Source of the DNA: Gordonia asplenii
GTDB lineage: Bacteria > Actinomycetota > Actinomycetes > Mycobacteriales > Mycobacteriaceae
NCBI RefSeq assembly: GCF_012933505.1
Contig: NZ_JABBNB010000037.1
Location: 1 to 64,000 of the forward strand
DNA: 64,000 bases
Reading direction: 5' to 3'
This document shows positions 43,950-59,070 of the stretch, piece by piece. Each line of letters starts with the position of its first letter. The first letter of the stretch is position 1. A program made the position numbers and the translations under genes. The notes beneath the pieces are model-generated. The model made no database searches, was not told where the DNA came from, and saw only the letters and a program-made list of their open reading frames with translations.

Positions 43950-44654
43950 TCAGTTCCGCGCGACCACGTCGAGGAAGCCGTCCACCAGTCGCTGCGCGCG
44001 TATCCGGGATTCTCCCTCCCGAGCCGAGGTGTCGTCGATGAGCGCCCGCACGTCGTGGCCGGCGGCCTCCAGCTGCCGGTCACCGCCGTTGTCGAGCCAC
44101 CCGATTAGCATCGCGGCGTTCAACTCCGGATGAAACTGGACGGCCAGGTTGCGTCGAATCACGAAGCCCTGCGACGACGCGGCGTTGCGCGCGAGTTCGG
44201 TCGCCTTCGGCGGCACGTCCCAGCGGTCGTAATGCCACTGGAACCAGTCGCCGCCGGGCACGACCCCCTCGTCGTCGCTGAACACCGTGCGCCACCCCAA
44301 CTCCGGCGTCGATGAGCGGTAGACCACTCCGCCGTGCGTCGTGGCGAGCACTTGACCGCCGAAACAGATCCCGAGCACCGGAACGCCGGCGTCGTCGGCG
44401 GTGGCCATCATGTCGATCTCCGCGCCGACCCAGTTGCCGATCGTCGCCTCGTCGTACACCGACCACGCGGCCCCCATCGTCACGATCGCGTCGAAGGTCG
44501 TCGGATCTGGTAGATCCGTCGTCACGTTCGGCGACGCGAAGCGCTCGGCGGGAACGACCTGGTGTGACGAAACGTCGTAGCCACGCTCGACGAGTCGCTC
44601 ACCGACGGGTCCGGCCGGAGAGACGTGGTCATGGGAGAGGATGAGGGCTCGCAT
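43950..44654 (-). CDS. Class I glutamine amidotransferase-like protein
   Basis: A 234-residue GATase1-fold hydrolase related to GMP-synthase-type glutaminases. Visible are the nucleophile motif GICFGGQ (Cys about 94) and the catalytic HPE (VQFHPEL, about 172-178). Its fold is also used to hydrolyse gamma-glutamyl-amides, as in the AtdA2/TdnT proteins of aniline oxidation. The ATG at 44654 is 17 bp from a 20-bp operator (44671-44690). It is divergent from the reductase-oxygenase pair and thus probably part of the same catabolic regulon. Confidence 0.85.
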   Translation of the reverse strand: MRALILSHDHVSPAGPVGERLVERGYDVSSHQVVPAERFASPNVTTDLPDPTTFDAIVTMGAAWSVYDEATIGNWVGAEIDMMATADDAGVPVLGICFGGQVLATTHGGVVYRSSTPELGWRTVFSDDEGVVPGGDWFQWHYDRWDVPPKATELARNAASSQGFVIRRNLAVQFHPELNAAMLIGWLDNGGDRQLEAAGHDVRALIDDTSAREGESRIRAQRLVDGFLDVVARN

Positions 44655-44670
44655 GCACCACATCCTACAC

Positions 44671-44690
44671 ATTGTTCGTATCCAAACAAT
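44671..44690. promoter_or_regulatory. Regulon operator, site A
   Basis: ATTGTTCGTATCCAAACAAT, one of six near-palindromes in this locus. It lies 17 bp before the glutamine amidotransferase start on the minus strand, where a repressor could block transcription. Confidence 0.75.
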
Positions 44691-44759
44691 ACACCGCCGA
44701 CCGTTGGAAAAGCCGCGACCGAAGCCCGAAATCCCTTGCGTAACGGCACGTCATGCCAT

Positions 44760-44779
44760 ATCGTTTGTACCCGAATGAA
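44760..44779. promoter_or_regulatory. Regulon operator, site B
   Basis: ATCGTTTGTACCCGAATGAA, 27 bp before the reductase start. Site A is 89 bp away (centre to centre), one site in front of each divergent gene. Least conserved member of the set. Confidence 0.7.
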
Positions 44780-44805
44780 TTATCAGTAACGTCAGAGGCA
44801 GGGAC

Positions 44806-45771
44806 ATGACAGTCACCGAAACAGTTGTCAGAGAGACCGAGTTCGATCTGCGAATAAGCGCCCTCGATCGAGTGTCCGACGGCGTGCTGTCGATCGAGCT
44901 CACGCCGCTAGACGATTCCGCTCTGCCGGCATGGACGCCCGGCGCGCACGTGGACCTGATCCTCGGCCCCGACCTCGTCCGGCAATACTCCCTCTCCGGC
45001 GATCCGGCCGACCACGGCCGCTGGCGTGTCGCCGTCCTCTTGACGCCGGACAGCCGCGGCGGCTCGCGCGCCGTGCACGAGAACCTCACGGTCGGTGACA
45101 CCATCCGCGTACGGGGCCCGCGCAATCACTTCGTTCTCGCCGCAGCGCCGTCGTACGAGTTCGTCGCGGGCGGCATCGGCATCACCCCGATCCTGCCGAT
45201 GATCGCCGAGGCGCAGGCCGCGGGCGCGTCGTGGCGTCTGCACTACGGCGGACGTACCCGCGCATCGATGGCTTTCACCGACGAGCTCGCGCAGTACGGC
45301 GACAAGGTGACCCTGGTCCCGCAGGACGAGAGCGGACACCTCGACCTGCAAGCGATCCTCGGAACGCCGGCGGCCGACACCCTCGTCTACTGCTGCGGAC
45401 CGACACCGCTGCTCGACGCCATCGAATCCACGTGCGAGACGTGGCCGTCGGGGGCCTTGCACACAGAGCGTTTCGCCGCGCAAGAGGTGGACACCTCCGG
45501 TGACTCCGAGTTCACCGTGGTCTTCGCACAGTCGGGCATCGAGGCCAAGGTACCGGCCGACAAGTCGGTCTTCACCGTCGCCCGCGAGAACGACCTCAGC
45601 GTGCTCGGTTCCTGCCTCGCAGGCATCTGCGGCACCTGTGAGACCGACGTCCTCGACGGCGAGGTCGATCACCGCGACAGCGTCCTAGACGAGGATGAGC
45701 GCGCCGCGAACGAAACCATGATGATCTGCGTCTCCCGTTGCCGCGGTCCCCGACTCGTCCTCGACATCTGA
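44806..45771 (+). CDS. VanB/PDR-type ferredoxin oxidoreductase
   Basis: A 321-residue electron-transfer reductase for a Rieske oxygenase. An FMN/FAD-binding beta-barrel (RQYSLSGDP, about 61-69) is followed by the NAD-binding domain (FVAGGIGITPILPM, about 117-130) and a C-terminal plant-type [2Fe-2S] ferredoxin: Cys pattern C-x4-C-x2-C in SCLAGICGTCETDV (about 268-279) and a later Cys in MMICVSR. This is the phthalate-dioxygenase-reductase (VanB) arrangement. It is the first gene of an operon with the Rieske gene 26 bp downstream. Site B controls it. Confidence 0.93.
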   Translation: MTVTETVVRETEFDLRISALDRVSDGVLSIELTPLDDSALPAWTPGAHVDLILGPDLVRQYSLSGDPADHGRWRVAVLLTPDSRGGSRAVHENLTVGDTIRVRGPRNHFVLAAAPSYEFVAGGIGITPILPMIAEAQAAGASWRLHYGGRTRASMAFTDELAQYGDKVTLVPQDESGHLDLQAILGTPAADTLVYCCGPTPLLDAIESTCETWPSGALHTERFAAQEVDTSGDSEFTVVFAQSGIEAKVPADKSVFTVARENDLSVLGSCLAGICGTCETDVLDGEVDHRDSVLDEDERAANETMMICVSRCRGPRLVLDI

Positions 45772-45797
45772 TCACTCCCGCAGCGAAGGAACCGAAC

Positions 45798-46847
45798 ATG
45801 ACTTCCACCTCTGGAACTGAGCGGCGCGCGGCGTCGATCGACTTCCCCACCGGCAGCTGGTACGCCGTCGCAACGAGCACGAGCGTCGGCCGACAGCCCT
45901 CGGCCTGCCGCGTCCTCGGCAAACGCGTCGTGGTCTATCGCGACAGCCGCGGCGACGCCGTCGCGCTCGACGACCGGTGTTGCCACTCGTCCTATCCGCT
46001 CAGCCTCGGCCGCGTCGAAGGCGACGACATCCGTTGCGGCTACAGCGGATTCGTCTACGGCCCGGACGGCGCGGTGCGCAGCGTGCCGACGCAGTCGCTG
46101 GTTCCCATCGGCGCGCACGTGCACGCCTACCCGGTACGCGAGCAGGACGGCCTCATCTGGGTCTGGCCGGGATCGCCCGGTCGAGCGGCGCGGCGAGAGA
46201 TTCCCGCACTCGGCTGGCTGACCTCGCCGGACTGGACGACATTCGGCGACAGCTGGGTCGTGGAGGCGAATGCGACACTCCTGCAGGACAACTTCGCCGA
46301 CATCACCCACATCGCGCACCTCGATCCGGTGGCCGCTCCGCCGGTCCTGTCGAGCCAGACGCCGGAGATCGTCGTCACCGTCAACGAGCTGACCGTCTCG
46401 TTCAGTCGCGATTACCCGGCGTCGGCGCTGCAACCCTGGCAGGCCGAGATCCTCGAGGTTCCCGCGGACTCGCAACACGCTCAACGTGAGGAGGGGACGT
46501 TCCTGTCCCCCGGCCTCTGGGTCGACCGCTGGGACATCAGCGTCGACGGCCACGGCGAGCAGGACGGAACCAAGACGTCGTACTTCACCCACGCGATCAC
46601 TCCGATCGATGAGCGCACAACCGCACACACGTGGCGCGTCAGCCGCAACTACACGCCGTCGGCCGCGGCCACCGGAACGATGGAACCGGTGATGCGCGAC
46701 TACTACCGTTCGGTGCACCGCGCACTGGAGACGATCCAGCGGGTCATCGACGACGACGGCCCCCGCCGCGACGTGACCGTTCGCGCGGACGCGGCGAAAG
46801 TCGCAGTCCGCAAACTGATGCGCAGGCTCGCCGCCGAAGAGGCCTGA
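45798..46847 (+). CDS. Rieske [2Fe-2S] oxygenase (VanA-like) with altered Rieske ligand
   Basis: A 349-residue alpha-subunit-type oxygenase, probably an aromatic O-demethylase or hydroxylase. The Rieske motif is C61-x-H63 but the second half reads RCGYSGFVYG (C80-x2-S83): the expected second His is Ser. The non-heme iron site is probably DNFADITHIAH (D168, H171, H174), with a shorter H-x2-H spacing than the usual H-x3/4-H. ATG at 45798 follows GAAGGA. It is co-transcribed with the VanB-like reductase and ends at the terminator at 46861. Whether it is active with this ligand set is open. Confidence 0.87.
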   Translation: MTSTSGTERRAASIDFPTGSWYAVATSTSVGRQPSACRVLGKRVVVYRDSRGDAVALDDRCCHSSYPLSLGRVEGDDIRCGYSGFVYGPDGAVRSVPTQSLVPIGAHVHAYPVREQDGLIWVWPGSPGRAARREIPALGWLTSPDWTTFGDSWVVEANATLLQDNFADITHIAHLDPVAAPPVLSSQTPEIVVTVNELTVSFSRDYPASALQPWQAEILEVPADSQHAQREEGTFLSPGLWVDRWDISVDGHGEQDGTKTSYFTHAITPIDERTTAHTWRVSRNYTPSAAATGTMEPVMRDYYRSVHRALETIQRVIDDDGPRRDVTVRADAAKVAVRKLMRRLAAEEA

Positions 46848-46860
46848 GCCGTCGTAGACG

Positions 46861-46897
46861 AAAGACCCGATCCCAGGGGCCTGGGGTCGGGTCTTTT
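46861..46897 (+). terminator. Rho-independent terminator after the Rieske gene
   Basis: A 15-bp stem AAAGACCCGATCCCA/TGGGGTCGGGTCTTT with a 6-nt loop and a run of T after it (GTCTTTTCG), 13 bp after the stop. A classic intrinsic terminator. Confidence 0.85.
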
Positions 46898-46929
46898 CGT
46901 GTGGCGTCGGGTCGGGTGCACCGATGGCG

Positions 46930-47580
46930 ATTGGAAGCTGTTGAGCAAGCGAAGTCAGTCCGCACCCGTTGATTGAGCGCGCAGTCCGCTCCCGTTGATT
47001 GAGCACGCGCAGTCCATCCCCGTTGATTGAGCCGGTGATTGAGCCTTGGTTGAGCCTGGTTTCACCGGTCCGGGCACTGCATCTGCTGGTTGAGCCGCGA
47101 GGAGCGCTAGCGACGAGCGTGTCGAAACCCCTGTACCACAATGCATTTGATGGTGGCGCACGTGTCGAACTGCGATGGAATCGAACATCGAGGCGTGTGC
47201 ACCCGTAGAGGGCACACGCCTCACTTGCCGGGTGAGATCTCCGATATTGGCGCGCATCATCGAAAGTCGTTGTGGCTGAGAGGTTTCGACACGGACTGGG
47301 CTAGCGCCTCGTCCGGCTCAACCAGCAGAGGGGCGCTTCGGCCGGTGGATCCAGGTTGAGCGAGCGCAGCGAGTCGAAATCACACTCACAATCGACCTCG
47401 CGCGACCCCACACCCGACTTCTGATTGCCGTGGTCGTCTGACGCCGAACCCAAAAGGTGCATTCGACGGTTCAGCTGTCGAATGCACCTCTAGGCGGCGA
47501 GGCTTCGCCTTTAGTCGGTTGTGTCGCCGGGGTTTCGACACGGGCCTACGCTTGCGCTCCGGCCCGGCTCAACCGGCGGC
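46930..47580. repeat. Repeat-filled gap with composite REP-like copy 2
   Basis: Three copies of a unit with CCGTTGATTGAG (about 46950-47035) are followed by the reversed composite element 47052-47170, matching 26564-26716. A further element with CTCAACCAGC is near 47285-47330. A perfect 13-bp hairpin AGGTGCATTCGAC/GTCGAATGCACCT lies at 47455-47489, and a last reversed element ends at 47577 next to the P450 gene. No gene is seen here. Confidence 0.75.
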
Positions 47581-48851
47581 TACTTCAATGTCACCCGTAC
47601 CGGGAACGACTTCATGCCGTTGACGAAGTTGGATCGGATCCTCTTGGCCTCGCCCGCCAGTTCAATCGTCTTCAGTCGGGGCAGGAGTTCCTCGAGCACG
47701 ATCCTGATCTCCAACCGGGCCAGGTTGTTGCCGAGGCACAGGTGCGGGCTGCCCTTGCCGAAGGTCATGTTGTCGACATTCTTACGGGTCACGTCGAGTT
47801 TGTACGGCTCGGGGAAGATCTCGGAATCCCGGTTGCCCGATGCGAACCAGGTGACCACCTTGTCGCCGGCCTTGATCTGCTTGCCGGCGAGTTCGACGTC
47901 ACGGGTCGCGGTGCGCCGGAAGTGGTACACCGGTGACGCCCACCGCAGCAGTTCTTCGAGTCCGCTACCGATCAACGACGGATCGGCCTGCAGACTGGCC
48001 ATCTGATCGGGCTGGTTGATCAACGCGTAGGTGATGTTGCTGATCGCGTGTCGAGTCGTCTCGTTGCCCGCGATGACGAGCAACGAGAAGTAGTTGTCGA
48101 AGTCGAGATCGCTGAGCGGAATTCCGTCGGTGGGCATCTTGTTGGCCAGCATGCTGACCAAGTCGGTGCCGGAGCCGCCCTTGCGTTCGTCGCGCAGCTT
48201 GCGACCGTAGTCCCACACGTCCTGAATCGTCGGCGACCGGAACGGCAGATGCGCGAACTCCGCGCTCTCGGGGGCGTCGAGGGGGTGGTCGGTGAAGTCG
48301 GGGTCGGTGTTCGCCACTAGTTCGTTGCCCCACGCGATCAGCTGCGGGGTATCGGACCGGGGAACATCGAGCAGCCGGGCGAGAACCTGAATCGGCAGGT
48401 CGGCACTGACCTCTTCGATGAAGTCGAACTCGTCCTTCTCCAGTGCCGCGTCGATTGTCTGCTTGGTCAGCTCCCGAAGGAACGCCTCGTAGTTCTTCAT
48501 CAGGTTGCGGGGCGAGAACTCTCGCTGGATGAGGCCCCGCAACGCCTGGTGGCGTGGACCGTCGGTCTCCAGGATCGAGCGTCGGGCGTCGCGCAGCTCC
48601 GGAGCGACCTCTTCCAGGTTGACGAATTCCGTCGATGTGAAGGTGTCGGAATCCTTCTGGACATCCCAGATGTCGTTGTAGCGGGTGACGGCCCAGAAGC
48701 CGTTCCCGCCGTCGGTCTCCTCATTCCAGTGCACCGGGTCCTCGCGGCGCAGGGTGTCGAACATTCCCCACGGGCCGCCGTCCGCGGCGAAGCGGTCGAC
48801 GTCGGCGAGGTCGACCTGATCGAGGGGTACCGAAATCGGTTCGGTCGTCAT
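47580..48851 (-). CDS. Cytochrome P450
   Basis: A 423-residue soluble bacterial P450 monooxygenase. The I-helix motif AGNETT (about 253-258), ExxR in EELLRWASP and the heme loop FGKGSPHLCLGNNLARLE with the axial Cys are all present. It resembles the actinobacterial CYP124/125/142 group that oxidises steroids and lipids, but the substrate is open. The ATG at 48851 is preferred as AAAGGAG lies 6 nt before it, whereas it abuts the ATG at 48857. It is 40 bp downstream of the GS-like gene and should be in its operon, under site C. Confidence 0.92.
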   Translation of the reverse strand: MTTEPISVPLDQVDLADVDRFAADGGPWGMFDTLRREDPVHWNEETDGGNGFWAVTRYNDIWDVQKDSDTFTSTEFVNLEEVAPELRDARRSILETDGPRHQALRGLIQREFSPRNLMKNYEAFLRELTKQTIDAALEKDEFDFIEEVSADLPIQVLARLLDVPRSDTPQLIAWGNELVANTDPDFTDHPLDAPESAEFAHLPFRSPTIQDVWDYGRKLRDERKGGSGTDLVSMLANKMPTDGIPLSDLDFDNYFSLLVIAGNETTRHAISNITYALINQPDQMASLQADPSLIGSGLEELLRWASPVYHFRRTATRDVELAGKQIKAGDKVVTWFASGNRDSEIFPEPYKLDVTRKNVDNMTFGKGSPHLCLGNNLARLEIRIVLEELLPRLKTIELAGEAKRIRSNFVNGMKSFPVRVTLK

Positions 48852-48891
48852 GTGCATCTCCTTTGATGTCTGGGCTGTGACTGTGGGAGGG

Positions 48892-50256
48892 CTATAGGTG
48901 ATAGGTGTACTCGGCGAATTCCCAGTCGGTGATGAACGACTGGAAGCGGTTGATCTCGTCCCGCTTGTAGGTCAGGAAGGTCTTGACGAAGACGTCACCC
49001 AGAACGTCACGTAGTTCGGTGTCGGCCTCGAGGGCGTCCAGAGCCGCGGAGAGCGTCGTCGGCAGCATCTCCGACCGCTCGGGGTCGTATCCGTAGCCGA
49101 CCAGCGGCTCGGCAGGCTCGATCTTGTCTCGGACTCCGAGGTACGCCGCGGCGAGCAAGCTGGCCGTGGCCAGGTACGGATTGGCGCTGGCATCGCCCAG
49201 ACGCAACTCCAGGCGACTCGCCTTGCCGCGCTCCGGGGGAATCCGCACCATCGCCGACCGGTTGTCCAAGCCCCAGTCGATCAGCCACGGAGCCAGGGTG
49301 TCCGGCCCGAACCGCTTGAACGAATTGATGGTCGGATTGTGCAGTGCCGCCAATGCCGGCGCATGCGCGAGGATGCCGCCGATCGCCCAGTGCGCCACCT
49401 GCGACAGACCGTCCGCCGAGTCGGGGTCGTCGAACAGGGCGGCGCCGTCGTCGGACCACATCGAGAAGTGGATGTGGAAACCGGAACCTCCCTCGTCGTT
49501 GAACGGTTTGGCCATGAACGTCGCGAGTTTGCCGAGTTTGCGCGCCAGTTCCTTCACCGCGGCCTTGAACCGGTGTGCTCGGTCAGCCGAGTCGAGTGCG
49601 TCCGAGTGCCACAGGTTGATCTCGAATTGGCCCGACGAGAACTCGTGATTGGCCGCGACCACTTCGAGGCCGTAGTCACCGAGCTGCCGAAGCGACGACA
49701 GCAGGACGTTCTCCGGATCGCCACGCAGCCCGGACACATAGACGTTGCCGGTCGCTTCGCCGTAGCGCGCCCACCCGTTCGGCGCCTTCTCGTTGGGCTC
49801 CAAGACGTAGAACTCCAGCTCCGGCCCGCAGATGGGGCTCATCCCCAATTCCGCGAACTGCTCGACGACGCGCTTGAGCACCTGTCGCGGGCTTTCCTGC
49901 GACGGTGAGCCGTCCGGGTTGAACACATCGGCGATGCAGTGGGCCACCCCGGGCTCCCACGGAACCGGCTGCATCGTCTCCAGGACCGGGAAGGCGACGA
50001 CGTCGGGGAGGCCTGCGTTCATGCCGCCGTCGATGTCGACGACGCCGCCGCCCGGCGTCGTGCCGTACACCGATCGACAGAAGGCGACGCCACCGCCGAC
50101 CGTCCGACCGAACCGGTTGACGAGGACATCTCGCCCGCGGTCGGTGCCGATGATGTCGCTGTACCCCAGACGCACGACATCAATGCCCTGTGCTTCGAGG
50201 TCGGCTTGTGCCGGCGCTAATCCTGAGGTGTCGAAATGTGCCACGGTTGCCTCCAA
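48892..50256 (-). CDS. Glutamine synthetase-like gamma-glutamylamide synthetase
   Basis: A 454-residue GS family enzyme of the GlnA3/GlnA4/PuuA/IpuC type. The catalytic regions are GPELEFYVLE (about 144-153), ANHEFSSGQFEINL (about 200-213), GSGFHIHFS (about 261-269), NRSAMVRIPPERGKASRLELRLGDASANPYLA. It lacks the adenylylation NLYDLP motif of GlnA. Such enzymes join glutamate to amines (polyamine, ethanolamine, isopropylamine, aniline) with ATP. Its partner hydrolases are at 43950 and 52330. Site C lies 8 bp before the ATG. It leads an operon with the P450. Confidence 0.88.
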   Translation of the reverse strand: MEATVAHFDTSGLAPAQADLEAQGIDVVRLGYSDIIGTDRGRDVLVNRFGRTVGGGVAFCRSVYGTTPGGGVVDIDGGMNAGLPDVVAFPVLETMQPVPWEPGVAHCIADVFNPDGSPSQESPRQVLKRVVEQFAELGMSPICGPELEFYVLEPNEKAPNGWARYGEATGNVYVSGLRGDPENVLLSSLRQLGDYGLEVVAANHEFSSGQFEINLWHSDALDSADRAHRFKAAVKELARKLGKLATFMAKPFNDEGGSGFHIHFSMWSDDGAALFDDPDSADGLSQVAHWAIGGILAHAPALAALHNPTINSFKRFGPDTLAPWLIDWGLDNRSAMVRIPPERGKASRLELRLGDASANPYLATASLLAAAYLGVRDKIEPAEPLVGYGYDPERSEMLPTTLSAALDALEADTELRDVLGDVFVKTFLTYKRDEINRFQSFITDWEFAEYTYHL

Positions 50257-50263
50257 CTGGATG

Positions 50264-50283
50264 ATCGTTCGGGTCCAAACAAT
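50264..50283. promoter_or_regulatory. Regulon operator, site C
   Basis: ATCGTTCGGGTCCAAACAAT, 8 bp upstream of the GS-like gene start on the minus strand, so it overlaps the likely transcription start or ribosome binding region. Confidence 0.78.
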
Positions 50284-50333
50284 ATCGCAATGTTTCCTGC
50301 GTCACAAGGTTTTCAAGAGACTCGGAACCCTGT

Positions 50334-50353
50334 ATTGTTTGGACCCGAACGAC
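50334..50353. promoter_or_regulatory. Regulon operator, site D
   Basis: ATTGTTTGGACCCGAACGAC, 33 bp upstream of the acetoacetate-decarboxylase-like gene. The centre is 70 bp from site C, in the shared divergent promoter region. Confidence 0.78.
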
Positions 50354-50385
50354 TTTCCGAACACCCCGCGAAGGAAGAGACACTC

Positions 50386-51186
50386 ATGGCCACACTCAAC
50401 GGATTCTTTTACCCGCGAACGGAATTGGGGACGGCCGGCATCGTGCCGAATCCGCCGTGGTATTACTCCGGCGACCTACTGACGGTCGAATACCGGACAG
50501 ATCCGGCACGGGTACGTGAGCTGCTTCCCGAACCGCTCGAACTCGCCGACGAGGATCCCGGCGCGGTGGCGTTGATCTGGGCGGACTGGCAGTCGTGCAG
50601 CGGATCGCGCGAGGAGCTTCTCGATCCGGTCCGCGCGCAGTACAAAGAGGCTTTCGTCGTCGTGCGCTGCTCGTATGCCGGCCAGACCTTCTCGCGGTGC
50701 GTCTACATCTGGGTGGACAAGGATTTCGCCATCGCCCGCGGCATCCACCAGGGCTACCCGAAGAAGCTCGGCTCCATGTGGCAGACCCGGCCGCACCCAT
50801 TCCTGCAGGCAGCGCCCGCGATCGGACCGGGCGGTGTGTTCGGCGCGACGCTGGCGGCCGGCGATCGTCGGCTCGCCGACGTCGTGCTGACCCTGCGCGA
50901 AGAGTCCGACACGAACGGCTTCGTCAACGGACACGCGATGGCTCATCACCGCATCCTGCCCGGCATCGAAGCAGGCTCCCCCGACGCCTACAACGAGCTG
51001 ATCTCGTCGCAGGGCGCCGAGTTCGAACGCGGGCAGGCATGGAAGGGCGACGTCGACATCAACCTGTACAGCTCACCGACCGAGGAACTCGATCGACTCA
51101 CCGTCGACGAGATCATCGGCGGCTACTACTGCCAGGTCGGAGTCGTCTGGAACGGCGGACACAGCCTGACTCGCCTGGTTCCGTGA
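50386..51186 (+). CDS. Acetoacetate decarboxylase family protein
   Basis: A 266-residue ADC-family protein. The family signature GIHQGYPKKLGSMW (about 122-135) contains the Lys that forms the Schiff base in true acetoacetate decarboxylase. The conserved N-terminal GDLLTVEYRTDPARVRELLPEPLEL region is also present. Members act as decarboxylases, dehydratases or aldolase-type enzymes on keto acids. Start ATG at 50386 follows AAGGAAG. It heads an operon with the marR gene (37 bp apart) and is under site D. Confidence 0.87.
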   Translation: MATLNGFFYPRTELGTAGIVPNPPWYYSGDLLTVEYRTDPARVRELLPEPLELADEDPGAVALIWADWQSCSGSREELLDPVRAQYKEAFVVVRCSYAGQTFSRCVYIWVDKDFAIARGIHQGYPKKLGSMWQTRPHPFLQAAPAIGPGGVFGATLAAGDRRLADVVLTLREESDTNGFVNGHAMAHHRILPGIEAGSPDAYNELISSQGAEFERGQAWKGDVDINLYSSPTEELDRLTVDEIIGGYYCQVGVVWNGGHSLTRLVP

Positions 51187-51223
51187 CGTAGTCGAGGCAG
51201 CGTCGTCCCATATACTCGCCCGC

Positions 51224-51730
51224 ATGTCCCCTTTCGCCACGCTCCGCGAAACCGAGGAGGCGGTCGGTGAGCGGGTCGGCGCGCTCCCGATCGACTTCAA
51301 CGCGATGCACGCATTGTCGAGCCTGCACCGCGCTGCCAACGCCATCCGAACGCACACGACGAATACCGTCCTACGAGATGCTGACATCTCGTGGACCGGA
51401 TTCGTCGTGTTGTGGTCGGTATGGATCTACGACGGTCTGCCCACGTCGCAGGCCGCCGAGTCGGCGAATATCTCCAAGGCAACCTTGACCGGGGTGGTCG
51501 GAACCCTGGAGAACCGCGGCTGGATCGAGCGATCGACCGACCCCGACGACCGCCGGCTGATCAATCTCGCGCTGACCGACGACGGTCGAGCCCTGATGGA
51601 TTCCCTGTTCCCGAAGTTCAACGCACTCGAGGCCGACATCGTCGCACCGCTCGGCGACCGGAAAGTCCGGGAACTGACGAAAAGCCTGCGCCTGATCGTC
51701 GAGCAGATCGAACAGCTAGAGCTCGACTGA
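51224..51730 (+). CDS. MarR family transcriptional regulator
   Basis: A 168-residue dimeric winged-helix regulator. The central DNA-binding part is TSQAAESANISKATLTGVVGTLENRGWIERSTDPDDRRLINLALTDDGR (about 74-123); the wing DDRRL is canonical. N- and C-terminal helices form the dimer. It is likely co-transcribed with the ADC-like gene under site D. That makes it the best candidate for the protein that binds the six 20-bp sites, perhaps an autoregulated repressor released by an aromatic or amine ligand. Confidence 0.9.
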   Translation: MSPFATLRETEEAVGERVGALPIDFNAMHALSSLHRAANAIRTHTTNTVLRDADISWTGFVVLWSVWIYDGLPTSQAAESANISKATLTGVVGTLENRGWIERSTDPDDRRLINLALTDDGRALMDSLFPKFNALEADIVAPLGDRKVRELTKSLRLIVEQIEQLELD

Positions 51731-51760
51731 CCCGGCGCAGGCCGGACCGGAACGATCCAT

Positions 51761-52280
51761 CCGCTGGTTGAGCCGGACCGGAGCGCTAGCGACGGTCCGT
51801 GTCGAAACCTCGCAAGCCAACGATGCCAACGCATCCAGACACCATGGAACCAGCGGAGATCGGCTCACCGTGGTTCGACGCGAGCGCGTCACTTCGCTGC
51901 GCTCGCTCAGCACGGCGCTCGCTGCGCTCGGCGGGCCCGGCTCAGCGGGTGGGTGTGGTGGTTTCGACACGCTCGTCGCTAACGCTCCTCACGGCTCAAC
52001 CAGCGGCGGGCCTGTCCTCGGTGGATCCAAGTTGAGCCGGACCCCAGCGGCTCCTTCCGCTGGTTGAGCCGGACCGGAGCGCTAGCGAAGGACCGTGTCG
52101 AAACCTCGCAAGCCAACGATGCCAACGCATCCAAACACGATGGAACCAGCGGAGCTCGGCTCACCGTTTCGACGCGGGCGCGTCACTTCGACTCGCTGCC
52201 CTCGACGGGCCCGGCTCACTGGCGGGTGTCGTGGTTTCGACACGTTCGTCGCTAACGCTCCTCACGGCTCAACCAGCGGA
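51761..52280. repeat. Tandem duplication of a roughly 250-300 bp composite element
   Basis: Unit 1 starts at 51761 and unit 2 at 52057; each opens with CCGCTGGTTGAGCCGGACCG, has GTGTCGAAACCTCGCAAGCC, then CAACGATGCCAACGCATCC, and ends with a reversed GGTTTCGACACG...GGCTCAACCAGC element (about 51962-52004 and 52233-52275). The middle parts have diverged. No gene is present between 51731 and 52329. Confidence 0.8.
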
Positions 52281-52329
52281 TGGCTCGGCGGGCCCGGCTC
52301 AGCTGGCTGCGCGGGTCTGGATTCACCCC

Positions 52330-53061
52330 CTACCTCGCCGCATTCACCAGACCGCCGAAGATCGACGCCGACAGCCGATCTGACCCGGCGGTGTCCTCGG
52401 GGTGCCACTGCACTCCGACGAACCATCCCGGGGCGTCGTCGAGGCCCACGGCTTCGATCGTTCCGTCGTCGGCTCTGGCGACGACACTCATCCCCTCACC
52501 CAGCCGGTCGATCGACTGATGGTGGTAGCAGGAGATCTCAATCGTGTCGGTGCCCCATAGGTCTGCCAGCAGACTGCCTTCGGTGACCGCGACCGTGTGC
52601 ACCCGATGACGGTGGTCCGTGCCGCCGGTCGACGCCGCGTCCATGTGCGCGTGCAGCGTGCCGCCCCGCGCCACCGTGACGACCTGCAGGCCGCGGCAGA
52701 TCGCCAGCAGCGGAGTGCCCGACGCGAGCGCGTAGCGGGCCACCGCCATGTCGAAGGCGTCCTGCTCCTCGTCGACGTCATAGTGTTCGGGATGACGCTG
52801 CGCACCGGTCCACACCGGCGACAGGTCACCGCCGCCCGGCAAGAGGATCCCATCGCAGAAACTCAGCCGCCGGGCCACCTCGTCGACGTCGACGACCGCA
52901 CCCGGCGCCACCGGGTGCACGACGACGGGCTCGCCGCCCGCCGCGTAGACCGCGTCGAGCAGTGCGCGAGCCGTCACCTCGGCGCCGTACCGCAGTGCCG
53001 ACGCGTTCTCCGAGAACCGCGCGGGGATCGCGATCAGCGGACGTCGGCCTGCGTCGCTCAC
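52330..53061 (-). CDS. Gamma-glutamyl hydrolase-like protein (peptidase C26, PuuD-like)
   Basis: A 243-residue class I GATase-fold hydrolase of the C26 group. The nucleophile motif is LAICRGLQVV (Cys about 125), with a catalytic pair VQWHPED (about 215-221) and the start RRPLIAIPARF. PuuD in putrescine degradation uses this fold to cleave gamma-glutamyl-GABA. It is last in an operon on the minus strand, overlapping the FAH gene by 4 bp (53058-53061). It is a natural counterpart of the GS-like enzyme. Confidence 0.87.
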   Translation of the reverse strand: MSDAGRRPLIAIPARFSENASALRYGAEVTARALLDAVYAAGGEPVVVHPVAPGAVVDVDEVARRLSFCDGILLPGGGDLSPVWTGAQRHPEHYDVDEEQDAFDMAVARYALASGTPLLAICRGLQVVTVARGGTLHAHMDAASTGGTDHRHRVHTVAVTEGSLLADLWGTDTIEISCYHHQSIDRLGEGMSVVARADDGTIEAVGLDDAPGWFVGVQWHPEDTAGSDRLSASIFGGLVNAAR

Positions 53062-53918
53062 GGCTGCGGCGGCGCGGGCTTGCGGATGCCGCGGAATTCC
53101 CAGTCGCCGCCCTGCGCGGTCGAGAGCACCTCTTCGCTCTCGGTCGGCTGAGCGCCGACGTCGGACCGGATCGGCGTCGGGCCCTCGACGATGTGGTTGC
53201 GCAGTGTGCCCAGCCCTTCCACCTCGACCTCGACGACGTCACCGGGGTACACGGTGCGCGAGATCGCCGGCGTTCCCGACAGCAGGATGTCGCCGGGCTG
53301 GAGGGTGATCGTCCGCGCGATGTCGGCGACGAGGTAGTGCATGTCCCATTCCATCTCGTCGGTGTTGCCGTCCTGACGCACCTCGCCGTTGACGATCGTG
53401 CGGATCCGCTTGCCGCGGAAATCCCAGCCCTCGACGATGCCCGGCCCGATCGGGCACAGCGTGTCGGCGCCCTTGACACGCAGCATCGAACCCGAGTCGG
53501 TGTCGCGGAAATCGTGCAGCCCGTAGTCGTTGGCGACGGTGTAGCCGCGAATGTAGTCCCCCGCTTCGGCGGGCGAGATGTTGCGCGCGGTGCGCCCGAT
53601 GACGATGGCGATCTCGCCCTCGTAGTTGAGCCACTTGCAGCCGACGGGCCGCACCACCGCGGCGTCGTGAGCATTGAGCGCGGAGACCGGCTTGTGGAAG
53701 TAGGTCGGCGCCTTGGGCAGCGCGGTCTGCAGCTCGGTGACCCGGCTGAGGTAGTTGAGGTGGACGCAGATGATCTTGCTCGGCTCGACCGGCGCAAGAT
53801 GCGTCGCGTCGGCGATCGGTGTGCGACGACCGTCGCCCGCGACGAGATCGGTGCCGTCGACCCGGACGTCGACGACGTTGCCGTCCAGCAGGATCCGACG
53901 GTATTCGGTGGTGGTCAT
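53058..53918 (-). CDS. Fumarylacetoacetate hydrolase family protein (HpaG-like)
   Basis: A 286-residue FAH-fold, metal-dependent hydrolase/decarboxylase. SKIICVHLNYLSRV (about 47-60), NYEGEIAIVIGRTARNIS (about 97-114), and DYGLHDFRDTDSGSMLRVKGADTLCPIGPGIV resemble the HpaG 5-oxopent-3-ene-1,2,5-tricarboxylate decarboxylase/isomerase of homoprotocatechuate breakdown. It sits in the HpaE-HpaD-HpaG-C26 operon, 27 bp after hpaD, which supports this role. It overlaps the C26 gene by 4 bp. Confidence 0.88.
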   Translation of the reverse strand: MTTTEYRRILLDGNVVDVRVDGTDLVAGDGRRTPIADATHLAPVEPSKIICVHLNYLSRVTELQTALPKAPTYFHKPVSALNAHDAAVVRPVGCKWLNYEGEIAIVIGRTARNISPAEAGDYIRGYTVANDYGLHDFRDTDSGSMLRVKGADTLCPIGPGIVEGWDFRGKRIRTIVNGEVRQDGNTDEMEWDMHYLVADIARTITLQPGDILLSGTPAISRTVYPGDVVEVEVEGLGTLRNHIVEGPTPIRSDVGAQPTESEEVLSTAQGGDWEFRGIRKPAPPQP

Positions 53919-53945
53919 GGGTGTCCTTCGGGTTCGGCTCGCCGG

Positions 53946-54899
53946 TTATCCGGCTGCGGTCAGGTCGGGGCCGGCGGTCTGCCGGAGGTAGTCGGGATCG
54001 GCGGGAGTGCGGCGCGGGCGCGGGAAGCCGGACTCAGGCCGGTCGAACCAGTAGTGCACCTGGCCGGTTCCCACCGAGTTCTCGTATTCGCCGTAGCGTC
54101 GCCCGGACGCGGTGCAGTCGCCTTCACCGATCGCACCCATCATCATCAGGTAGTGCCCGAAGCGCGCCTCGGGTTTGAATCGGTAGAACTCGTCCATCGT
54201 GTCGAGCACCCGTGCGTGATCACCCGCTTCGAACCACTCCATGCGCTTGGCGTCAGCGGCGGCCGCTTCGGCGGTGAAGATGTGCTCGACGCCCGACGCC
54301 TCGTGGTCGCGCAGCTTGCGCAGCGGCCAGAACGTGTGCGAGAGCGCGCCGGAGGCGATGAGCATGACCTTGCGGTCGGATTGGGCGATCGCGTCGCCCA
54401 GGGCGCGGCCGAGGCGCAGGTTGTCTTCGCCGTCGGCCGTCTGGCAGACGCCGATCGAGATCCACTTCTTGTCCGGCAGGCCCTGCCCGAGGAATTCCCA
54501 CAGGTTGGTGGTGGCGTAGAAGATCGGCAGGTGATCGTCGTCGATCGCGGTGATGAACGTGCTGTGCGCGGGACCCTGCTCGGCGATGCGGTGGGCGAGC
54601 TCGGGATCTCCGGCGAAGTCGTAGTGGCGGCGAGTCATTCCGCGCGGCAACTCTTCGGAGGTGAACAGCCCGGCGCGGCGCTGCTGAGCGGTGACGACGA
54701 ATTCCACCGTGGTCGCCCAGTGCGAGTCCAGCACGACGACGGTGTCGTAGTCGACGGTGTCGAAGACCTCGGAGCGCAGCTGATGCAGCGCGGGCACGAG
54801 GGTCGTGTCCTCGCCGTGATTGAGCTCGCGCCGAATGTCCTCCGGCAGCACGATAGTGGGGACGTGCGCGAGCAATCCCGCGCCGACGACTTCGCCCAT
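53946..54899 (-). CDS. 3,4-dihydroxyphenylacetate 2,3-dioxygenase-like (HpaD, class III extradiol)
   Basis: A 317-residue LigB-superfamily ring-cleavage dioxygenase that would open a catechol ring next to its hydroxyls using Fe(II). It has LLAHVPTIVLPE (His12), VVVLDSHW (His60), LFTSEELPRGMTRRHYDFAGDPELAHRIAEQ and ASGALSHTFWPLRKL, aligned with the HpcB/HpaD of E. coli. Its ATG overlaps the last base of the ALDH stop (TGATG), so it is translationally coupled to HpaE. This suggests a 2-carbon side chain with a carboxyl, as in dihydroxyphenylacetate. Confidence 0.88.
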   Translation of the reverse strand: MGEVVGAGLLAHVPTIVLPEDIRRELNHGEDTTLVPALHQLRSEVFDTVDYDTVVVLDSHWATTVEFVVTAQQRRAGLFTSEELPRGMTRRHYDFAGDPELAHRIAEQGPAHSTFITAIDDDHLPIFYATTNLWEFLGQGLPDKKWISIGVCQTADGEDNLRLGRALGDAIAQSDRKVMLIASGALSHTFWPLRKLRDHEASGVEHIFTAEAAAADAKRMEWFEAGDHARVLDTMDEFYRFKPEARFGHYLMMMGAIGEGDCTASGRRYGEYENSVGTGQVHYWFDRPESGFPRPRRTPADPDYLRQTAGPDLTAAG

Positions 54900-56383
54900 C
54901 AGTTTTCCTTTCCGTCTGCGGTCCAGCCGGCAGGCGAGAAGACCGAGTTCTTGACATTGGTGTAGAAGTCGAAGGACCAGATTCCGCCTTCGCGGCCGAT
55001 CCCGGACTTGCCGTTGCCGCCGAACGGGGCGCCGAGGTCGCGCACGAAGAAGCAGTTGACCCACACGGTTCCGGCGTCGAGGCTGTTGCTGACCCGCTCG
55101 GCCCGCACCGGATCGCCGGTGACCAGCGTGGCTGCCAGGCCGAATCGGGTGTTGTTGGCCAGGTCGACGGCCTGCTCTTCGGTCTCGAAGGTCTCGAGGG
55201 TGAGAACCGGCCCGAAGACCTCCTCGGTGAGGATCTCACTGCCCGGCGTCGCGCCGGTCAGGATCGTCGGCGCGAAGAACAGTCCCCCGAGGTCGCCGTT
55301 GGGTCCGCCGCCGAGGATCGGCTGCGCGCCGTCGGCGATCGCGCGTTCGACGAAGCCCGCGGTGGTGTCGAAATGCCTGCGATGGATCAGCGCCGAGACG
55401 TCGGTCGCCTCGTCGCGCGGATCACCCTGCACCAGGGTCGACGCCTTGTCGACGACGCGGCGGGTGAACTCGTCGGCGATCGATTGCTCGACGATCAGCC
55501 GCGAGCCCTTCAGGCAGACCTGCCCGGCGTTGTCGAACTGCTCGACCGCGATGTCCACCGCGAGGTCGAGGTCGGCGTCGTCGAACACGACCAGCGGTGA
55601 CTTGCCGCCGAGCTCGAAGGACAGCGGCACGATGTTCGGTGCCGCGGCCGCGGCGATGACTCCGGCGGTCGGTACCGACCCGGTGAAGCAGAGTCGGTTG
55701 ATGCCGGGGTGCGCGGTCAGCGGGGCGCCCGCTTGCGCACCGGTGCCCTGCACGACGTTGAAGACGCCCGCGGGCACTCCGGCGTCGTGCATGATGTCGG
55801 CGAGCAGGGATGCGGTCAGCGGCGCCCACTCCGGCGGCTTGACGACGACGGTGTTGCCCGAAGCGAGTGCGGGACCGATCCGCCAGGTCGCGAGCATGAG
55901 TGGGGCGTTCCAGGGTGTGATGATCGCGACGACGCCGGCCGGGTCATAGGTGATCCGTTCGCGGTGGTCACGCACCTCCATATCCGGGTGCGCGAGCTGC
56001 TCCTGCGCATAGTCGGCGAAGTAGCGGAAGTTCATGGCCACACGTGGCATGACACCGCGGCGATGGCTGCGCAGCAGCGAGCCGTTGTCGCGGGTTTCGA
56101 CGACGGCGAGTTGCTCGACGCGCTCGTCCACGAGGTCGGCGACGCGGCGCAGGATGGCGCTGCGCTCTTCGACGGGCATGGCCGCCCAGGCCGGGAACGC
56201 GGCACGCGCCGCGGCGACAGCGGCATTCACCTCTGCCTCTGTTCCGGCGCTGACGCGTGCGATCACCGATTCATCGATCGGCGACACGGAGTCGAAGGTG
56301 GTCGCCGAAGCCACCCGCTCGCCGCCGATCCAGTGCCGGGTGTCGACGTCGACGCCCTCCACCGTGGCATGAAATTCGTTCAT
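54899..56383 (-). CDS. Aldehyde dehydrogenase, HpaE-like (CHMS dehydrogenase type)
   Basis: A 494-residue NAD(P)-dependent dehydrogenase. Catalytic Cys290 (NAGQVCLKGS) and Glu257 (FELGGKSP) are present; the C-terminus WVNCFFVRDLGAPFGG ... GREGGIWSFDFYTNVKN matches 5-carboxymethyl-2-hydroxymuconate semialdehyde dehydrogenases. It would oxidise the ring-cleavage product of HpaD or alternatively a phenylacetaldehyde. It is first in the operon of hpaE, hpaD, hpaG and C26, with site E 21 bp upstream of its start. Confidence 0.9.
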   Translation of the reverse strand: MNEFHATVEGVDVDTRHWIGGERVASATTFDSVSPIDESVIARVSAGTEAEVNAAVAAARAAFPAWAAMPVEERSAILRRVADLVDERVEQLAVVETRDNGSLLRSHRRGVMPRVAMNFRYFADYAQEQLAHPDMEVRDHRERITYDPAGVVAIITPWNAPLMLATWRIGPALASGNTVVVKPPEWAPLTASLLADIMHDAGVPAGVFNVVQGTGAQAGAPLTAHPGINRLCFTGSVPTAGVIAAAAAPNIVPLSFELGGKSPLVVFDDADLDLAVDIAVEQFDNAGQVCLKGSRLIVEQSIADEFTRRVVDKASTLVQGDPRDEATDVSALIHRRHFDTTAGFVERAIADGAQPILGGGPNGDLGGLFFAPTILTGATPGSEILTEEVFGPVLTLETFETEEQAVDLANNTRFGLAATLVTGDPVRAERVSNSLDAGTVWVNCFFVRDLGAPFGGNGKSGIGREGGIWSFDFYTNVKNSVFSPAGWTADGKEN

Positions 56384-56403
56384 CTGTCCCTCGCTTCGTC
56401 GAG

Positions 56404-56423
56404 ATCGTTCGGGTCCAAACGAT
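56404..56423. promoter_or_regulatory. Regulon operator, site E
   Basis: ATCGTTCGGGTCCAAACGAT, 21 bp upstream of the HpaE-like gene start. Its two ends are perfect inverted repeats (ATCGTT/AACGAT). Confidence 0.8.
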
Positions 56424-56531
56424 AGGCGCTTTCGCCTCTCGGGTCAACACCTTTCACCCGACGCGGTCAGTTCCCGCGAATGTCGCCGAAAGTCTTGCGC
56501 GACACAGTGAGATGGATTACCTTTTTGCAAT

Positions 56532-56551
56532 GTCGTTCGGACCCGAACGAT
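56532..56551. promoter_or_regulatory. Regulon operator, site F
   Basis: GTCGTTCGGACCCGAACGAT, 26 bp upstream of the permease start. The best palindrome of the six; its centre lies 128 bp from site E in the divergent promoter region. Confidence 0.8.
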
Positions 56552-56576: not shown

Positions 56577-58106
56577 ATGACAACGCCACCCGAAGCGCAC
56601 CCGCCCTCAGTGCCCACGGACCACATCGAACGTCGCGACAGCCAGAAACTGCGCGCCGGCAAACTCGGCACTCTCGCCATCGCCTTCCTGGTGGTGTCCG
56701 CGGCGGCCCCACTCACGGCAATGGCCGGCGGCGCGCCCGTAGCCATGCTCCTCGGCAACGGACCGGGGGTACCCGCCGCATACGTCATCGTGTCCGCGCT
56801 GCTGATCGTGTTCGCCGTCGGGTACACCGCGATGGCGCGCCACCACACCAGCACCGGCGGCTTCTATTCGTTCGTCGCCCGGGGCCTGGGGCAATACGCC
56901 GGTGGAGCAGCCGCGTGGATCGCACTGCTCGGCTACAACACCATGCAGATCGGTCTGTACGGACTGTTCGGATCGGCGACGGCGTCGTTCCTGTCGGAGA
57001 ACTTCGGCTGGCATGTGCAATGGTGGGTGATCGCGTTCATCGGCATGGCGATCATCGCCGTCCTCGGCTATCGGCAGGTCGACCTGTCGGTGAAGGTCCT
57101 GTCCATCCTGGTCGCCGCCGAATTCCTGGTCGTGATCATCGTCGACGCCGCGGTCGTCGCCAAGGGCGGCCAAGGCGGCACCACCGGTCTCAGCCTCGAC
57201 TCGTTCAGCTGGTCCAGTCTCACCACGGGTTCGCTCGCGGTCGCCCTGTTGTTCAACTCGGCGTCGTACATCGGCTTCGAGGCGACGACCATCTACAGCG
57301 AAGAAGCCCGCGACCCCAAGCGCACCGTTCCCCGCGCCACCTATCTCGCGGTCCTCGTCATCGGCACGTTCTACACGATCACCACCTGGCTCATGGTCAA
57401 CGCTCAAGGCGCGACCGGACTCGTCGCACACCTCGCCGGCCTGCAGCCCGACCCGACGGCATTCCTCTTCGAGATCAGCCAAACCTACGTCGGCACCGCC
57501 GTCACCAGGACCATGTCCCTGCTCTTCGCCACCAGCGTCTTCGCCGCGCTGCTCGCCTTCCACAACGCGGTGGCCCGCTACCTCTACGCACTCGGTCGCG
57601 AAGGCCTGGTTCCCGAGCGGCTCGGCCGGACGCACCCCCGGCACCTCAGTCCGCACGCCGGATCCGTCACGCAGACCGTTCTGGCCCTGGTCGTCGTGTT
57701 CATCTTCGTCGTGACCAATCAAGATCCGGTCCTGGCGCTGTTCACCTGGCTCACCCAGCTCGGCACCCTGTCGATCCTGTTCCTGATGGCTCTCGCATCG
57801 CTCGCGGTGCTGGTGTTCTTCCTGCGCAACCGCGAGCTGGACCGCAACATGTTACGCACCCGAGTCGCCCCGACCGTCGGCTTCCTGGCCCTGGCGACCG
57901 TCGCCGTCTACGCGGCGTCACAGTTCGGGAATCTGATCTCCAGCCCTGGCAGTGCACTGGCCTGGGAGCTGCCGGCGTTGATCGCCGTCGCGGCGGTCAT
58001 CGGTGTGATCTCGGCCGTCGTACTCAAACGACTGTCGCCGGCGCTGTTCGCCAACATGGGCCGCCACCGCGGCGACGAACTCGATCCGACGGCGTCGGAG
58101 GGCTGA
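56577..58106 (+). CDS. APC superfamily permease
   Basis: A 509-residue membrane permease with about 12 helices. SASYIGFEATTIYSEEARDPKRTVPRATY (about 225-253) is the APC signature. It is clearly paralogous to the permease at 382. The location next to the ring-cleavage operon and its own operator (site F) suggest uptake of the substrate, most likely an amine or amino acid. ATG at 56577 is preceded by TAGGAG. A regulator gene follows 40 bp downstream. Confidence 0.9.
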   Translation: MTTPPEAHPPSVPTDHIERRDSQKLRAGKLGTLAIAFLVVSAAAPLTAMAGGAPVAMLLGNGPGVPAAYVIVSALLIVFAVGYTAMARHHTSTGGFYSFVARGLGQYAGGAAAWIALLGYNTMQIGLYGLFGSATASFLSENFGWHVQWWVIAFIGMAIIAVLGYRQVDLSVKVLSILVAAEFLVVIIVDAAVVAKGGQGGTTGLSLDSFSWSSLTTGSLAVALLFNSASYIGFEATTIYSEEARDPKRTVPRATYLAVLVIGTFYTITTWLMVNAQGATGLVAHLAGLQPDPTAFLFEISQTYVGTAVTRTMSLLFATSVFAALLAFHNAVARYLYALGREGLVPERLGRTHPRHLSPHAGSVTQTVLALVVVFIFVVTNQDPVLALFTWLTQLGTLSILFLMALASLAVLVFFLRNRELDRNMLRTRVAPTVGFLALATVAVYAASQFGNLISSPGSALAWELPALIAVAAVIGVISAVVLKRLSPALFANMGRHRGDELDPTASEG

Positions 58107-58128: not shown

Positions 58129-58167
58129 CGGCATATTCTCTTGCTCATGACGCAAGAGAATATGCCG
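58129..58167. promoter_or_regulatory. 39-bp inverted repeat over the regulator start codon
   Basis: Perfect 16-bp arms CGGCATATTCTCTTGC (58129-58144) and GCAAGAGAATATGCCG (58152-58167) flank a 7-nt loop, TCATGAC, that contains the ATG of the XRE-cupin gene (58147-58149). It may be a DNA operator for that regulator or an RNA hairpin that hides the start codon. Confidence 0.75.
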
Positions 58168-58755
58168 TCTTCTGTCGATCTGGACGTCGTCGTACGCCAG
58201 CGTATCCGCAGCCTCCGACTCGCCCGGGGGTGGTCGCTCGACACGCTCGCCGCGCGGTGCTTCCTGAGCCCTTCGACGTTGTCCCGCCTGGAGACCGGAC
58301 ATCGGCGCATCGCGCTCGACCAGCTAGTGCCCATCGCGCGGGCGCTGGGGACGTCGATCGACCAGCTGGTCGAACCGATCGACGACACCGACGTCGTGAT
58401 CCGCCCCGAACCTCAACAGTGGCCCGGGCGAACCACGTGGATCCTGTCCCGCGACCGCGCCGTCAACGGGGTTACCGTCGCCAAGATGCGAATCGACCCC
58501 ACCCCACCCGGGTCCGACGAACTGCGCGTCCACCCCGGCCACGACTGGTTCACCGTACTGTCGGGCACCCTGCGTCTGCGGCTGGGTGAACGCACCATCT
58601 TCGTCGAGACCGGCGACGCCGCCGAGTTCTCGACGATGGTCCCGCACTGCCTGTCCGCACACGAGGCGACCACCGAAATCCTCACCATCTTCGACCGCGA
58701 GGGTGAACGGGTCCACCTACCCGCCGGCCCGACACCCGACGTCGAGCCGAGCTGA
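58147..58755 (+). CDS. XRE-cupin family transcriptional regulator
   Basis: A 202-residue regulator. The N-terminal HTH-3 domain (about 10-70; RIRSLRLARGWSLDTLAARCFLSPSTLSRLETGHR) is followed by a cupin sensor domain (about 105-185; HPGHDWFTVLSGTLRLRLGERTIFVETGDAAEFSTMVPH). This is the PuuR-like arrangement that controls amine or amino-acid breakdown. The ATG at 58147 lies inside the inverted repeat; a second in-frame ATG is at 58162. It is likely co-transcribed with the permease or has its own promoter, controlled by the 58129-58167 palindrome. Confidence 0.87.
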   Translation: MTQENMPSSVDLDVVVRQRIRSLRLARGWSLDTLAARCFLSPSTLSRLETGHRRIALDQLVPIARALGTSIDQLVEPIDDTDVVIRPEPQQWPGRTTWILSRDRAVNGVTVAKMRIDPTPPGSDELRVHPGHDWFTVLSGTLRLRLGERTIFVETGDAAEFSTMVPHCLSAHEATTEILTIFDREGERVHLPAGPTPDVEPS

Positions 58756-58767
58756 CGGGTTGCGATT

Positions 58768-59070
58768 TCCGCTGGTTGAGCCGGGTCGAAGCGCTACGAG
58801 GGTGCTGATCAATCCAACGGGCGGCGCGCACCCGCTGGTTGAGCCGGGCCCGACGAGCGAAGCGAGACGCGCCCGCGTCGAAACCAAGGTGAGTCGAATT
58901 GACAACTGTCACAAGGCGTTTGGATTCGTTGGCATCGTCGTCTTGCGAGGTTTCGACACGGGACTCCGCTTGCGCTCCGTCCCGGCTCAACCAGCGGGTG
59001 AGGGACGTTTCGGCGTTAATCAGCACCGTCCTAGCGCAGACCCGTGTCGAAACCACGCAAGCCGACGGGG
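58768..59070. repeat. CTGGTTGAG repeat cluster
   Basis: Several elements in both orientations: CGCTGGTTGAGCCGGGTCGA near 58770, a second CGCTGGTTGAGCCGGGCCCG to GCGTCGAAACC (about 58837-58883), a reversed GGTTTCGACACGG...GGCTCAACCAGCG (about 58950-58998), and GTGTCGAAACCACGCAAGCC (about 59043-59062). No gene is present between 58756 and 59090. Confidence 0.8.

Follow-up and report, generated by a model that had tools for sequence, protein, structure and literature searches.

The window analysed here, a stretch of 64,000 nucleotides of the Gordonia asplenii genome, holds a catabolic locus in which a 20-bp near-palindrome occurs six times. The locus raises the question which regulator reads these sites and what kind of pathway is placed under its control.

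Candidate operators in the window

All six near-palindromes reported in the preliminary description are present (Table 1). They share the 20-bp consensus RTYGTTYGGNNCCRAACRAY and read GTTYG-N4-CRAAY. Their coordinates bear out the proposed layout of three divergent promoter regions with two sites each, one per gene. The distance between site and start codon had been given as 8–33 bp, and the gaps found are 16, 26, 19, 32, 20 and 25 bp, taking as likely starts 44654 (GATase), 44806, 50244 (GTG, GS-like), 50386, 56383 and 56577, which were chosen from the start codon and the position of the Shine-Dalgarno sequence.

Table 1. Genes and candidate operators of the locus (window coordinates)
Feature	Position	Strand	Remarks
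Class-I glutamine-amidotransferase (GATase)-like protein	43950..44654	-	putative AtdA2/NpaA2-like role
VanB-type reductase	44806..45771	+	Fer2 and NAD-binding domains
Rieske oxygenase	45798..46847	+	VanA_C domain
Cytochrome P450	47580..48857	-	
GS-like protein, putative gamma-glutamyl amine ligase	48892..50244	-	two true-GS residues replaced
Acetoacetate-decarboxylase (ADC)-family enzyme	50386..51186	+	upstream of marR, same strand; MppR model 164.5, below cut-off 380
MarR-family regulator, 168 aa	51224..51730	+	Pfam MarR; proposed binder
Peptidase C26 protein, relative of gamma-glutamyl-GABA hydrolase PuuD	52330..53061	-	90.4 bits, below cut-off 266
HpaG-like fumarylacetoacetate-hydrolase-family protein	53058..53918	-	212.8 bits, below HpaG-C-term cut-off 276.4
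HpaD-like extradiol dioxygenase	53946..54902	-	119.9 bits, below HpaD_Fe cut-off 315.95
HpaE-like aldehyde dehydrogenase	54899..56383	-	508.3 bits, below HpaE cut-off 638.35
Amino-acid permease	56577..58106	+	AA_permease_2
XRE-cupin regulator	58147..58755	+	outside conserved regulon
Operator 1	44671..44690	-	before GATase-like gene; candidate -10 TATTGT 44686-44691; poor GGCTTT at -35 position
Operator 2	44760..44779	+	before VanB-type reductase/Rieske genes; candidate -10 TATCGT 44759-44764, -35 TTGCGT 44736-44741, 17-bp spacer
Operator 3	50264..50283	-	before GS-like/P450 genes; candidate -10 TATTGT 50279-50284, -35 TTGTGA 50302-50307
Operator 4	50334..50353	+	before ADC-like/marR genes; candidate -10 TATTGT 50333-50338, weak -35 TTTTCA 50310-50315
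Operator 5	56404..56423	-	before hpaE/D/G-like and C26 genes; candidate -35 TTGACC, 17 bp, -10 TATCGT (56447-56419)
Operator 6	56532..56551	+	before amino-acid permease; only TGTCGT in -10 register

A search of the window with the degenerate 20-mer, up to three mismatches allowed, scores 12 hits over the two strands. All of these are the six sites, each counted once per strand; the expected number is 1.41, and none of 100 shuffles exceeds 6. A symmetric matrix built from the six scores them at 25.7–31.9 bits. The next best place in the window reaches only 13.2 bits and lies within an AMP-binding ORF.

The gaps of the locus (46950-47580, 51750-52300 and 58767-58870) also contain intergenic dispersed repeats of about 45–65 bp. 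They read GGTTTCGACACG...GGCTCAACCAGC or the reverse of this, and two copies of 116 bp (51756 and 52052) are 95% identical.

Occurrence in the rest of the genome

Across all 131 contigs of the genome (6,640,957 bases), the 14-bp core GTTYGKRYCCRAAY has no exact copy besides the six sites. Elsewhere, the 20-mer has no copy with zero or one mismatch and five with two mismatches, four of which sit under stop-free frames of 318–474 codons. The fifth (C57:116203-116222, i.e., L079:1501-1520; 23.8 bits) has a stop-free frame of only 150 codons and is located 80 bp before a frame resembling a GDSL-type hydrolase; its sequence makes it a weak candidate for a seventh operator, unlinked to the locus.

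A random spread of the motif over the genome, named in the preliminary description as an argument against a regulon, is not seen at full stringency, while looser matches do exceed the backward control: the core with up to one mismatch has 76 strand matches genome-wide against 18 for the backward pattern, and the 20-mer with up to three mismatches has 91 against 17 (the six sites included in both cases). This surplus may reflect base composition or weak sites. A dispersed repeat was rejected as the identity of the sites, as the full-length motif is unique in the genome.

Recurrence of the motif around MarR homologues

In a sample of 395 other genomes from across the phylum, 36 carry a homologue of the MarR protein (E 1e-15 or better). 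A tblastn search of plasmid records gave 100 records with a match, of which the best four, from Embleya and Streptomyces, were used. The matrix derived from the six window sites alone was applied to the DNA around the 36 genomic homologues and to the four plasmid records; its weights differ slightly between scans, and many of the stretches from relatives end at short contigs. Sites above 14 bits number 82 in these 775,867 bases (one counted twice, since two S. canus stretches overlap) and occur in 29 of the 40 records. Control DNA of 328,342 bases from 26 of the same 36 genomes has one such site, and reversed sequence has none. Above 18 bits, 56 sites are found in 28 sequences versus at most two across 60 symmetric column permutations.

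Location was assessed for 63 sites from 23 sequences, the window included: 55 lie within 350 bp upstream of a locus-gene homologue and eight are without a labelled gene, with two L054 sites flagged as falling within a neighbouring match, where an extension artefact is suspected. At least one site stands beside a labelled locus-gene homologue in 25 of the 40 records. The other four site-bearing records (G323, G355, G409 and G607) have no site beside a labelled gene, and no site above 14 bits was detected in 11 of the 40 records with a MarR homologue; the siteless records with four or more locus-gene homologues include G307, G337, G359, G413, G472 and G392. In G557, a site found by blind motif search precedes ADC and P450 homologues on one contig (C50), and marR is located on another (C43).

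At least three other locus genes surround the MarR homologue in 27 of the 40 records and at least one in 36 (E 1e-8), which is a generous count, as the HpaE query picks up further aldehyde dehydrogenases too. The fullest loci among the relatives are those of Embleya (L053, L054), G598, G477, G655 and G677. The proposal that the sites unite the locus genes in one regulon is therefore supported by the recurrence of the motif with MarR and locus-gene homologues in many, not all, records of the phylum.

Of 301 genomes sampled from the family, none but the own one yielded a match to marR (at E 1e-20) or to the GS-like gene (at E 1e-120). A separate scan of genome contigs, on which we do not rely, revealed just two weak MarR relatives. 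The locus looks to have been acquired, or retained by this genome alone among the family genomes sampled. Such a joint restriction of marR and the GS-like gene is consistent with regulator and pathway arriving together.

A blind motif search over the phylum returned nine of 396 genomes; five of the eight besides the own one have MarR (hypergeometric 2.2e-4). We set this p-value aside because only two of the eight (G557 and G643, both with MarR) have the site before locus-gene homologues. In the other three genomes with MarR the site is found at FTR1 iron genes (G371, G402) or in a long coding frame (G634). The three genomes without MarR are G347, with the site in an AMP-binding frame, G449, with the site before a ParA-like gene, and G462. 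The look-alike palindrome at the FTR1 iron-permease genes, TCGTTCGGNNCCGAACGA, occurs in two genomes of one family (near position 1500 in both L101 and L102), and a DtxR-like regulator adjoins it in L102.

On a Sagittula stellata plasmid, consecutive GS-like, GATase-like and P450 genes are neighboured by a gene for an AraC-type regulator (L058, 9959-13266), and no site above 14 bits was found within the 25 kb examined. The S. canus plasmid locus has one-carbon genes (aminomethyltransferase, purU and methylene-THF dehydrogenase; L056, 18836-21696), which may hint at a demethylation step.

Candidate regulators

The product of the gene at 51224 has a MarR winged-helix domain (PF01047, 7.5e-14, 51.8 bits against a gathering score of 24.6). 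Its designation as the most likely binder finds comparative support, as in nine relative loci (L054, L055, L056, L061, L067, L068, L110, L111 and L127) no more than 130 bp separate a site from the marR gene downstream of it, most of these sites sharing the region with a nearer divergent gene. We also compared the presence of a relaxed dyad between classes of the MarR recognition helix. It was present in 19 of 23 records of the K class (SKAT, TKGT, etc., own record included), 7 of 14 of the RP class (SRPT) and none of four others; the control for this count is imperfect (42 dyads in the K class versus 13 with swapped letters, some dyads looking like chance) and the trend is confounded by relatedness, which the helix classes follow. 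The trend may thus be said to have the direction expected of a cognate pair, and no more.

The second candidate of the preliminary description, the XRE-cupin protein, has a DNA-binding domain and adjoins the locus downstream of the permease gene, and in such a scheme MarR would have another role. Its gene has no preceding site among the window matches, and no homologue was detected at E 1e-8 in the stretches of the 40 relative records, many of them short contigs, while 29 of these keep the sites. We rejected it as a binder on account of this absence, and regard it as extremely unlikely.

Conserved sites do not in themselves name their binder, and the palindrome at the FTR1 genes indicates that other regulators may use similar sequences, so a regulator whose gene lies elsewhere in the genome, unlinked to the locus, was considered as well. 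We find it improbable: the sites stay with the MarR gene in distant lineages, including the nine loci where they lie close upstream of it, and marR shares its restriction to one of the 301 family genomes sampled with the GS-like gene. The local MarR protein is thus retained as the proposed binder.

Promoter register and proposed mechanism

In the direction of the gene, all six window sites are immediately preceded by a T, and a -10-like hexamer TATYGT is found at five of them. A TTG is present 24 bp upstream of the operator in front of the VanB, GS-like and HpaE genes, where the respective hexamers TTGCGT, TTGTGA and TTGACC are placed exactly 17 bp upstream of TATYGT. This register was also evaluated in 61 sites above 16 bits with a labelled gene within 150 bp, taken from 30 sequences. 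T precedes the operator in 34 of the 61 versus 14 at the mirror position, and TTG peaks at the -24 offset with 12 of 61 (mean 0.79 and maximum 3 at other offsets). Without two sister records the peak amounts to 9 of 53. Relatives taken by themselves give 6 of 47, no other offset exceeding 3, and their -35 signal is modest, with 1.77 mean matches to TTGACA versus up to 1.72 elsewhere. A general promoter scan of the region yielded one promoter (HpaE) versus 1.3 by chance.

Since the operator overlaps the -10-like hexamer, a bound repressor would block polymerase. Judging from sequence comparison, we hold with good confidence that the local MarR repressor (51224) has the 20-bp site as its operator and would work by covering the -10 element, as at five of the six promoters. 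A MarR protein could instead activate transcription, or repress some promoters and activate others, as PMC7180172 describes for HpaR, itself a MarR protein, in Yersinia; the overlap with the -10-like hexamer at five of the six promoters is the position expected for repression, and we think activation, in whole or in part, quite improbable here.

Repression by the MarR protein could then proceed as follows. Without substrate, the MarR dimer would occupy all six operators. At five promoters the operator starts one base after the T of TATYGT, so bound repressor would cover the -10 element and keep polymerase off the three divergent promoter pairs, among them presumably the promoter of ADC and marR, which would amount to autoregulation. 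The inducer that releases MarR would be a metabolite of the pathway, perhaps the amine, its gamma-glutamyl conjugate or a ring-cleavage product. Release would jointly turn on uptake by the permease, gamma-glutamylation by the GS-like protein, oxygenation by the P450 and Rieske proteins, deglutamylation by the C26 and GATase proteins, and meta-cleavage by the relatives of HpaD, HpaE and HpaG. The sequences show the site, its position, its uniqueness in the genome and its conservation with marR and the locus genes, while we infer MarR binding, the promoters, repression by covering of the -10 element as opposed to activation, the inducer and the substrate.

The putative pathway

When the GS-like protein is aligned to 7ten, FDGS is replaced by FCRS and GYEAP by DTLAP, which puts Cys in place of the Asp and Leu in place of the Glu. 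We take these two residues to be Asp50 and the flap Glu of GS. On this assignment the protein has a GS fold without the ammonium-site Asp and the flap Glu. According to PMC11335346, GoaS has lost the Glu of the Glu-flap and Asp50' of GS, a loss described for enzymes whose glutamylation target is an organic amine instead of ammonium. The pathway probably degrades an organic amine, and the GATase-like and C26 proteins fit deglutamylation.

The relatives of HpaD, HpaE and HpaG all score below their cut-offs (Table 1) and do not qualify as equivalogs of the homoprotocatechuate pathway, so the ring-cleavage substrate need not be homoprotocatechuate. The substrate amine would probably be aromatic or arylalkyl. 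We speculate, as something possible rather than probable, that a single MarR clade, through an operator embedded in the -10 element, controls a pathway that is widespread among actinobacteria and has not been described. Its substrate, an aromatic or arylalkyl amine, would first be masked by gamma-glutamylation and oxidised by the P450 in this form; after deglutamylation it would enter a homoprotocatechuate-like meta-cleavage, and a gamma-glutamyl intermediate would act as inducer.

Relation to known systems

By function, the nearest known regulator is HpaR, the MarR-type repressor of the hpa operon for homoprotocatechuate catabolism. Both systems combine a MarR protein with a local catabolic regulon and relatives of HpaE, HpaD and HpaG, to which the window locus adds the GS-like ligase, P450, Rieske, C26 and ADC-like proteins. 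The sites of HpaR on the hpaG1 promoter are given in PMC7180172 as TTAA-N4-TTAA, in contrast to GTTYG-N4-CRAAY in the window. The HpaR model TIGR02337 gives the window MarR 42.2 bits, below the cut-off of 121.2, and membership in HpaR was rejected on both model score and operator.

In GoaS and the pathways for aniline and 1-naphthylamine (AtdA1-A2, NpaA1-A2), too, a GATase-like protein and a Rieske oxygenase accompany the GS-like ligase, and the GoaS-type loss of Asp50' and the flap Glu has its parallel in the replaced residues of the window protein. Distinctive of the window are the P450 gene placed after the GS-like gene and the VanA_C domain of its Rieske protein.

The Puu pathway (PuuA-PuuC-PuuD) shares with the locus the GS-like ligase and C26 hydrolase, and in Embleya L053 also a PuuC-like second aldehyde dehydrogenase (best NCBIfam match PuuC, 554.3 bits, below the cut-off of 850), which together with C26 faces HpaE across an interval that holds operators; tblastn shows this arrangement in L055 as well. 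No second aldehyde dehydrogenase was seen in the window locus, and no PuuB-type oxidase was identified for it. Unlike in the Puu pathway, ring-cleavage genes belong to the same regulon, and the window proteins score below PuuA- and PuuD-type cut-offs.

Local catabolic regulons under a MarR repressor are well known as a kind of system. Our literature search turned up no description of this locus, operator or gene combination; in line with the earlier remark that no published motif of this kind was known, exact core strings are absent from the open-licence papers searched. Very probably, one repressor of a familiar type runs an undescribed pathway.

The operator provides a sequence handle on this pathway, as distant actinobacteria have the regulator, its site and the set of genes in combination again. 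The motif helps to decide which genes belong to the pathway, and release of MarR from the operator could serve as an assay for the inducer, and hence for the substrate.
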